A model generated the notes under the pieces. That model worked only from the letters and a program-made list of their open reading frames with translations, was not told the origin of the DNA and searched no databases. Of a stretch of DNA of 64,000 nt, positions 44,115 to 46,285 are shown one piece after another. The stretch is from Leptolyngbya sp. BC1307 (GTDB lineage: Bacteria; Cyanobacteriota; Cyanobacteriia; Phormidesmidales; Phormidesmidaceae). Where the stretch lies: positions 1 to 64,000 of the forward strand of contig NZ_NRTA01000010.1 in NCBI RefSeq assembly GCF_002286735.1, written 5' to 3'. Made by a program: the position numbers and the translations under genes. How positions within the stretch are numbered: the first letter of the stretch is position 1; every line of letters begins with the position of its first letter.

Positions 44115-45728
44115 ATGAGTAGCCAGGTACTTGCAGATCGCTTTGAGATTAAACAACAGCTCAGCCGAACTGACTTTAGTACGGTGTATTTGGCAAGCGA
44201 TCGCCACAACCCGCACAGGCCGCTCTGCCGAATAACAGCGATTAGCTATTCTCAGCCAGAGATTCATCGTCGCTTAGAACAAGAAGCGCGAATGCTAGAG
44301 TGCTTGGGTCATCATCCCCAGGTTCCTGAGCTGCTGGCTTACTTTCATCCGCCCCAGCCCAAAAAACAACTCACTGAATCTTCTCTAAAAGTCTTCTATC
44401 TTGTTCAAGATCAAATTGTGGGCCATCCGCTGAGCGAAGAGATCGCCCTCTCTAAGCCGCTCAGCGAAAGCTATGTGATTAAGCTGTTGCAAGATCTGCT
44501 CACCGCCCTCGCCTTTGTCCATCAGCAGAACGCAGTTCACCAAAACCTGCATCCTCGTTACCTGATCCGGCGGGCCAGCGACGGTCAGGTTTTTTTGACT
44601 CAGTTTGGCGCAATGTCGCAGCTAGCGAAGGGGGCGATCGCCGCCAATAATATCCAAAACAGCCCCATTCTCGTTGCGCCCCAGCCCTATGCTGCCCCCG
44701 AGCAGATGCAGTCGTCTTCACCCCGACCTGCCAGCGATCTCTACGCCCTCGGCCTGATTGCCATTGAAGCGCTGACCGGCCAGCGGCATCAAGACTTTAC
44801 TTACGATCCGGGGAGCGATCGCCTCCTATGGCGGCAGCAAACCGAAGTCAGCCTGCCCCTGGCCGAATTTATCGACCGGCTGGTACGTCACCGCTGGCAA
44901 GATCGCTTCGCCAACGCTCACGAAGCGCTAATCACGCTAGAAGTAGAAAGCAACCGCCACCAAATCGCCCACGACAGCCGCCTGCCCACCGTCATCGCCG
45001 CCCCCGGCCAACACCGCCGCCCTACTCAACCCGCTCCCCCAAACTCCCCCTTTTCCCCTTCCTCCTTCTCCCATTCCCCTTCCCCATTCCCCCCCTCATC
45101 CCAAAGCCAACCCACCAAACTCCCCATCCGCTCCATCCTGAAATTCACAACCCGCAGTCTCGCCGTCTTACTCGCCATAGGCATGAGCGTCAAAGCCTAC
45201 CAGTGGAGCGAATACCGGCTCAGCCAGCTATCTCAAACCTGGCCTCAGACTTGGCCCCAGACCTGGCAAACCTGGAAAGATTCTCATATTTCTCTTCCCA
45301 AACCCGCCGACTTCTTCAAGACTGACAGCGTCAAAGCCGATGCTCCAGAAGCCGCCGCGACGCCTCAAGATCTGACGCCGCTACTGGCAGATGGCAGCAT
45401 TTTACTCAGGCCCGATGCCGCCGAAGCCTTCTGGCAAATGGTAGTCGCCGCCCGAGAGGCAGATGTTGATCTCTATCCGCTCGCAGGCTACGCCGCCAGC
45501 TCAGACGCTGCGCCATCAGCAGATTATGCCAGTGGCTATGCGCTCGATATTGGTGGGGCCGACTCAACGACAGACCAGCAGGCCAGCTTTGCGCAGACAG
45601 ACGCCTTTCGCTGGCTCCAACAAAACGCGCAGGACTACGGATTTGCGCAGTCTTCGCCTAAAAAAGGGCTGTTTGGCATCGGTTCAGAGCCCTGGCACTG
45701 GCGATACGGGGGCAATTCGCAAAGCTAG
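44115..45728 (+). CDS. Pseudokinase fused to a VanY-like D,D-carboxypeptidase-related domain
   Basis: 537 aa from ATG 44115. A kinase-like fold (about 8-275) has degenerate active sites: no Gly loop, Thr41 at the VAIK Lys, HQN at 142-144 for HRD, QFG at 163-165 for DFG; APE (194-196) remains. A Pro/Ser-rich linker (about 300-335), one membrane helix (about 347-360) and a Trp-rich stretch (QTWPQTWPQTWQTW, 374-387) follow. The VanY-like domain (about 415-537) has SADYASGYALDIG where the family has SxHxxGxAxD, so Tyr471 replaces a zinc His; Asp478 and EPWHW (525-529) remain. It may sense peptidoglycan outside and signal by binding inside. Kinase-only or enzyme activity is unlikely. Confidence 0.85.
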   Translation: MSSQVLADRFEIKQQLSRTDFSTVYLASDRHNPHRPLCRITAISYSQPEIHRRLEQEARMLECLGHHPQVPELLAYFHPPQPKKQLTESSLKVFYLVQDQIVGHPLSEEIALSKPLSESYVIKLLQDLLTALAFVHQQNAVHQNLHPRYLIRRASDGQVFLTQFGAMSQLAKGAIAANNIQNSPILVAPQPYAAPEQMQSSSPRPASDLYALGLIAIEALTGQRHQDFTYDPGSDRLLWRQQTEVSLPLAEFIDRLVRHRWQDRFANAHEALITLEVESNRHQIAHDSRLPTVIAAPGQHRRPTQPAPPNSPFSPSSFSHSPSPFPPSSQSQPTKLPIRSILKFTTRSLAVLLAIGMSVKAYQWSEYRLSQLSQTWPQTWPQTWQTWKDSHISLPKPADFFKTDSVKADAPEAAATPQDLTPLLADGSILLRPDAAEAFWQMVVAAREADVDLYPLAGYAASSDAAPSADYASGYALDIGGADSTTDQQASFAQTDAFRWLQQNAQDYGFAQSSPKKGLFGIGSEPWHWRYGGNSQS

Positions 45729-45847: not shown

Positions 45848-46285
45848 ATGCAGCGCAACCTTTTCAGAAAAGTTCCTGAGGCGTCATCACAACCTAATCA
45901 GCCTGACCCACGGCATCTGACGGCTTATTTCAAAACAGCGGTGGGCGGCTCTTTGCTGGCGGGCGGCGGCCTATGTACGGTGTTTGGCCTGTCGGCAGGA
46001 GTGCAGGCTCATCAAGTTTCGACTCTAGCGGCTATTGGCGTTTTGGTATCTTTGCTGGGCTGGGTGTGTTTGCGCCGCCCCTATTTTTTGCTAGAGCCGC
46101 ATCAGCTCACGGTTTATGGCCTGTTTGGTATGCCTACCCGGCGCTATACCTTTGAGTCTTGGGATGTGGTTAAGGCGGATAGCCGGCACATCTATATTGA
46201 CGATGGCGGCATTACTAAAAAGGTGCCGGTGCTGCCCTGGCTGGTCAAAACGGGTGATTGGCTGACGCTGCGTGAGCTGCTGTAG
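45848..46285 (+). CDS. Small membrane protein with PH-like domain (145 aa)
   Basis: Two membrane helices (about residues 38-56 and 59-75) are followed by FLLEPHQLTVYGLFGMPTRR, then YTFESWDVVKADSRHIYIDD, a strand pattern resembling bacterial PH-like (DUF304-type) domains. No catalytic motif. It stands alone and is convergent with the DedA gene, 18 bp apart. Function unknown. Confidence 0.6.
   Translation: MQRNLFRKVPEASSQPNQPDPRHLTAYFKTAVGGSLLAGGGLCTVFGLSAGVQAHQVSTLAAIGVLVSLLGWVCLRRPYFLLEPHQLTVYGLFGMPTRRYTFESWDVVKADSRHIYIDDGGITKKVPVLPWLVKTGDWLTLRELL

Follow-up and report, generated by a model that had tools for sequence, protein, structure and literature searches.

The window, a 64,000-nucleotide stretch of the genome of Leptolyngbya sp. 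BC1307, carries a gene for a protein of 537 amino acids whose start methionine is common to its orthologues (Table 1). Pfam recovered a protein kinase domain (Pkinase, 5e-17, residues 11-265) and a VanY domain (2e-16, residues 471-533) in this protein, both above the curated cut-offs; the PF02557 score was 60 bits against a cut-off of 25. A linker, a lone hydrophobic helix at approximately residues 341-362 and a stalk lie between them. AlphaFold2 gave confident models for both folded parts (most blocks at least 90), with a disordered linker (residues 290-333) and a weakly predicted stalk. In Foldseek searches the structures nearest to the kinase half were PknB and PknA (TM-score up to 0.81 by target length, for PknB), and homology to protein kinases in sequence and fold covered both lobes. 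The isolated outer domain was nearest to the VanY-like BaLdcB (4mph; 6e-8, TM-score 0.73 by query length), with a Hedgehog signalling domain as a more distant fold match, and its profile alignment to YodJ (4ox3) had an E value of 2e-17; the domain is homologous to the M15B (VanY/LdcB) fold. Judged by homology, the protein is a Hanks-type kinase domain joined through one membrane helix to a VanY/LdcB-type (M15B) domain, and it is predicted to span the membrane with the kinase half inside and the VanY half outside.

Table 1. Coordinates of the kinase-VanY fusion gene, its parts and related loci
Feature	Residues	Position	Strand	Basis or remark
Whole gene, 537 aa: kinase-like domain, linker, one membrane helix, stalk, VanY-like domain	1-537	44115..45728	+	ORF translation, Pfam
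Pseudokinase domain	11-265	44145..44909	+	Pfam; AF2 pLDDT mostly >90; nearest folds PknB/PknA
HQNLHPRYL replacing HRDxKPxNL	142-150	44538..44564	+	Alignment
LTQFG replacing LxDFG	161-165	44595..44609	+	Alignment
Juxtamembrane motif DSRLPTVIAAP, mostly in predicted disordered part	287-297	44973..45005	+	Motif scan, column identity
One transmembrane helix, with a conserved YQW edge	341-364	45135..45206	+	Hydropathy; model helix 338-375
Trp-rich imperfect repeat SQTWPQTWPQTWQTW, particular to window copy	373-387	45231..45275	+	Comparison with orthologues
Pseudo-VanY domain	419-536	45369..45722	+	Pfam, alignment, structure models
SADYASGYALDIG: Tyr471 at zinc His, Asp470 at Glu, zinc ligand Asp478 kept	468-480	45516..45554	+	Alignment
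EPWHWRY: retains catalytic Glu and second zinc His	525-531	45687..45707	+	Alignment
145-aa membrane protein, possible partner		45848..46285	+	~120 bases downstream of fusion
G077 fusion and nearby second, ordinary kinase gene		L157:4654-6255 and L157:2191-3801	-	
Standalone pseudo-VanYs (Okeania, Trichodesmium, Hydrocoleum)		L109:5677-6495, L111:5821-6711, L114:5656-6537, L099:1667-2548		

The Trp-rich stretch that follows the membrane helix had been suggested in the initial annotation to be a membrane-interface element. We found that it is encoded by a short imperfect DNA repeat coding TWPQTWPQTWQTW, which is expanded in the window copy only, the orthologues having a single TWQxW-like piece at this position. 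Being peculiar to this copy, the stretch does not represent a conserved element of the membrane interface. The small membrane protein encoded downstream adjoins the fusion in 6 of the 7 genomes of the genus, most of which have a second, distant copy elsewhere; it was not found outside the genus within the order and matched no Pfam or NCBIfam family above cut-off. Fusion neighbourhoods are conserved within genus g3, where they consist of ordinary genes, and differ between genera, and this genus-specific protein was the only candidate functional link to emerge from them. In G009, approximately 1 kb separates the fusion from a gene for a LysM and M23-type peptidase (L149:4567-6627, + strand).

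Catalytic and ligand-binding residues of the two halves

An active Hanks-type kinase carries the VAIK lysine, the HRD aspartate, the asparagine that follows it and the DFG aspartate. At these four positions the window kinase has threonine (Thr41, in RITAI), asparagine, tyrosine and glutamine, and its G-loop reads SRTDFST, with the glycines gone. The APE motif, DLYALG and the alpha-C glutamate are kept. Translation and numbering agree with the initial annotation, which had reported HQN for HRD, QFG for DFG, threonine at the VAIK lysine and an intact APE. As a control, we inspected approximately 18 other kinase-like genes of the same genome, all of which keep the catalytic aspartate, so that the losses are more than chance; joint loss of the lysine, catalytic aspartate, asparagine and DFG aspartate occurs in the window gene alone among them. 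Motif loss by itself is no proof of inactivity, given that SpkE of Synechocystis, a kinase that is missing conserved residues, was described first as inactive and subsequently as active (PMC2176072, PMC11863333).

For the VanY half, we aligned the fusions with 22 canonical cyanobacterial VanYs, none of which varies at the Ser, Arg, Gln, S-E-H, Asp, Glu and His. LdcB structures place the zinc between His153, Asp160 and His207 (PMC4087270), and an active M15B enzyme combines these three ligands with a catalytic glutamate. The first zinc histidine, present in all 22 canonical proteins, is tyrosine in 16/16 fusions. The initial annotation had described Tyr471 in place of this histidine with Asp478 and EPWHW kept, which was confirmed, and the substitution proved to be general. 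The residue after the tyrosine was considered as a stand-in for the lost ligand and rejected; it is histidine in 9/16 fusions and alanine in the window copy, and is not conserved. Of the remaining zinc and catalytic residues, the aspartate ligand is retained in 8/16 fusions, and the catalytic glutamate and the second zinc histidine in 14/16 each; the SAPPG loop that precedes the zinc motif is deleted throughout. Three residues are fixed across the fusions but not among the canonical VanYs: the Asp-Tyr pair that replaces Glu-His (16/16) and a tryptophan in the first helix (16/16). This points to re-purposing rather than mere decay.

It is highly improbable, in our view, that one or both halves have an unconventional activity, be it another transferase chemistry or a reaction with the tyrosine as metal ligand. 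The window copy does keep three of the four zinc and catalytic residues (Asp478, Glu525 and His528), and kinase-fold proteins with other chemistry exist, such as SidJ (PMC12599244), but across the family the aspartate ligand has been lost in 8/16 fusions, the glutamate in 2 and the second histidine in 2, and the window kinase has lost its G-loop, lysine, HRD aspartate, asparagine and DFG aspartate together.

We also compared the residues that hold the stem peptide. In LdcB, Arg120 is salt-bridged to the carboxylate of the product, the terminal D-Ala is served by Ser151 and Gln125, and Glu204 together with Arg120 adjoins the water (PMC4087270). The counterparts of LdcB Arg120, Gln125 and Ser151 in the fusions, assigned by motif spacing and profile alignment to YodJ (Arg70, Gln75 and Ser103 in alignment A3), are retained in 4, 9 and 9 of the 16, respectively, and all three are absent from the window copy. 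The specific binding of D-Ala-D-Ala stems suggested in the initial annotation was not borne out by these residues, which the window copy has lost and which are retained irregularly in the family as a whole. Because they are gone here, we rank only as a rival, and an unlikely one, the proposal that the protein is a peptidoglycan-fragment receptor, in which the pseudo-VanY cleft would bind stem peptides uncut and signal inward as a cyanobacterial counterpart of the PASTA kinases. The retained VanY fold would fit such a receptor, as would the glutamate and second histidine kept in 14/16 fusions and the presence of Gln75, Ser103, Glu160 and His163 (A3 numbering) in the mostly intact-kinase genus g3. 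Against it stand, besides the losses in the window copy, the missing SAPPG loop in all 16 and the copy of G002, which is also without the catalytic glutamate and second zinc histidine, yet is under selection.

Distribution, order of losses and selection

Full-length fusions were found in 16 genomes, all of the same family as the window and within one order. All 7 genomes from the window's genus have it, as do 6 from genus g3, while g4, g6 and g13 contribute a single genome each; the fusion copy of G004 is cut by contig ends. A profile search for both domains in one protein had been proposed in the initial annotation; the gene is not a one-off. No fusion was found outside the order in 390 genomes of the class, whether searched with the outer-half profile (matches listed down to approximately 6e-36) or with the full-length query, nor among the best 80 loci in a scan of approximately 85,000 species genomes; weaker fusions may lie beneath these listing limits. 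Kinases of genus g29 that match beyond the kinase domain (for example, L015) have a different C terminus and no VanY, and a G054 kinase with repeats and another tail was a chance extension; both were set aside. The fusion of G077, the only one found in its genus, retains all its kinase motifs and reads EPWRW in place of EPWHW. We also noted standalone membrane-anchored VanYs in Okeania, Trichodesmium and Hydrocoleum, with tyrosine at the zinc histidine, in the sequence GEY(I/V)TGYAVDIGD, and with EPWHWRYVG kept. These proteins resemble the fusions in having His changed to Tyr in the same motif, but they lack a kinase, keep the glutamate before the tyrosine and group with the canonical VanYs, forming a branch (support 100/99) separate from the fusions.

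In trees, the fused VanY halves formed one group (100/99), as did the fused kinase halves (96/93), and the fusion has a single origin. The full-length tree split the window's genus, g4 and g6 from g3 and G077 (97/95), a division that was recovered with other kinases as outgroup; some branches of the degenerate-kinase clade are long, and such branches may attract one another. A minor conflict came from the VanY-only tree, which places G009 with g3 (90/79). No member of the window-containing clade has the catalytic aspartate or the DFG aspartate; kinase residues have also been lost in part, and separately, in G032 and G063. By contrast, the lysine, catalytic aspartate, asparagine and DFG aspartate are all kept in G008, G021, G028, G060 and G077 (5/15 readable orthologues), so that the loss of the kinase residues is clade-specific and later. 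Since tyrosine replaces the zinc histidine in every fusion, the peptidase half was disabled by the time of the common ancestor. The fusion ancestor thus had an intact kinase and, by parsimony, already a tyrosine at the zinc histidine; the peptidase half died first, and the kinase half later in one branch.

To estimate selection, we compared G002 and G003 (76% identical, both halves dead), for which dN/dS was 0.114 in the kinase, 0.111 in the VanY half and 0.27 in the linker, values that are approximate with a dS above 1; neighbouring genes had 0.03-0.09. In a decaying gene dN/dS would tend to 1. Both halves are under purifying selection, with dN/dS of approximately 0.11 each, and a decaying gene without remaining function is nearly excluded: many catalytic residues have been lost, and the losses differ between copies, but the reading frame is open in all 16 fusions, dN/dS is low, some residues have become newly invariant and the linker contains a conserved motif. 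That selection keeps both halves despite the lost catalytic residues suggests that the protein is probably a signal relay or scaffold, not an enzyme. The double pseudoenzyme of the initial annotation, which by prediction crosses the membrane, was upheld as conserved in that losses are common to orthologues and both halves are under purifying selection; the sharing is complete for the zinc histidine, which no fusion has, and did not hold for the kinase residues in the five orthologues named above.

The juxtamembrane motif and known systems

Directly after the kinase domain, 15/16 fusions carry the motif [DN]-S-x-[LIFVM]-x-T-x-[VIM] (DSxLPTxVAA), in which Ser288 and Thr292 are invariant among the 15. 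It was found in 0/35 other cyanobacterial kinase loci scanned (two genes of the same genome counted twice). With a mean column identity of 0.77 for residues 286-297, compared with 0.59-0.67 for the domains and 0.40 for the remaining linker, it is the best conserved among the segments examined. The motif is kept in both the intact and the dead kinase versions, so a catalytic role is unlikely, and we conjecture that it may be a docking or phospho-acceptor site. The pseudokinase tail of MviN is phosphorylated by PknB and recruits an FHA protein, FhaA (PMC12599244); the genome studied here has nine FHA matches.

MviN (Mycobacterium tuberculosis, family ActPs3) is, like the window protein, a membrane pseudokinase, and is tied to cell-wall synthesis, but it has a multi-pass membrane part and a carbohydrate-binding domain and no VanY, and may be of a different family. 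The PASTA kinases (PknB, PrkC and Stk1) share the plan of a Hanks-type kinase inside, one helix and a cell-wall-related domain outside. The window protein differs from them in its pseudo-VanY ectodomain, its lack of PASTA repeats and the loss of kinase residues in its clade; the NCBIfam model NF033483 matched only the kinase part, at 66.6 bits against a cut-off of 450. With the M15B enzymes VanY/LdcB (BaLdcB, 4mph; BsLdcB, 4ox3) it has in common fold and sequence homology, EPWHW and Asp478, and it is set apart by the tyrosine at the zinc histidine, the lost stem-binding Arg, Gln and Ser, the deleted loop and the fused kinase. CP1 pseudokinases of cyanobacteria and proteobacteria, the only published pseudokinase family that we noted from cyanobacteria, have no transmembrane region and a linked COG3899 domain (PMC12599244), whereas the window protein has one predicted membrane helix and only kinase and VanY domains in Pfam, and does not fit the CP1 definition. 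A 2007 survey of cyanobacterial kinases listed 14 additional domain types, with VanY unmentioned (PMC2176072). We found no description of a kinase-VanY fusion in the open-access literature, in line with the statement in the initial annotation that no characterised example was known.

A further parallel is offered by the inactive LytM factors (EnvC, NlpD and DipM), which likewise retain a dead cell-wall metallopeptidase domain, in their case as a regulator (PMC10336132), but belong to the M23 family and have no kinase half. On this model the fusion would act in the periplasm to activate or titrate a carboxypeptidase or hydrolase that is a working enzyme, and the kinase half would anchor it on the cytoplasmic side. 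Another VanY is encoded in all 16 fusion genomes, and an intact one in the genome of the window copy; however, such a VanY is just as present in genomes without the fusion, so there is no specific co-occurrence, and no hydrolase gene neighbours the fusion except the M23 gene in G009. We regard a role of this kind as rather doubtful.

A receptor-type scaffold as the proposed function

The reading that we favour, and to which we give roughly an even chance, is that the window protein is a receptor-type pseudokinase, a transmembrane scaffold descended from a receptor kinase whose ectodomain was a pseudo-VanY. One fusion event brought together a Hanks-type kinase and a VanY/LdcB-type domain, the kinase of the early members being apparently intact; in one clade, which includes the window copy, the kinase later lost its catalytic residues, and both domains still fold in models and are under selection. 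The periplasmic pseudo-VanY may recognise a protein partner or some component of the cell wall, rather than a substrate to be cut, and the single membrane helix would relay the state of this domain to the cytoplasm. In the ancestral protein that state would have tuned the kinase, in the manner of the PASTA domains of PknB and PrkC (PMC5786024, PMC6428115). In the window form it would instead change how the kinase-fold surface and the DSxLPTxVAA motif are presented, the motif perhaps being phosphorylated by another kinase of the cell and read by an FHA-type protein, in the manner of MviN and FhaA. More tentatively, and with the balance tilted against it, we propose that the fusions constitute a new class of receptor: a bacterial receptor Ser/Thr kinase would have acquired a dead M15 domain, in one event, as its sensory ectodomain, the kinase would then have died in one clade, and the cytoplasmic output of the doubly dead protein would be the juxtamembrane Ser/Thr motif.

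If this scaffold reading is true, the family would provide a natural series for how receptor kinases keep a job after losing catalysis, running from an intact kinase (Leptolyngbya sp. PCC 7375, MAG.088) through a partly eroded one (Adonisia, L. cf. ectocarpi) to a fully dead one (the Phormidesmis-like clade). Intact-kinase and dead-kinase versions both occur in living species and are open to direct comparison. It would also add a cell-wall-enzyme fold to the ectodomains of bacterial receptor kinases.
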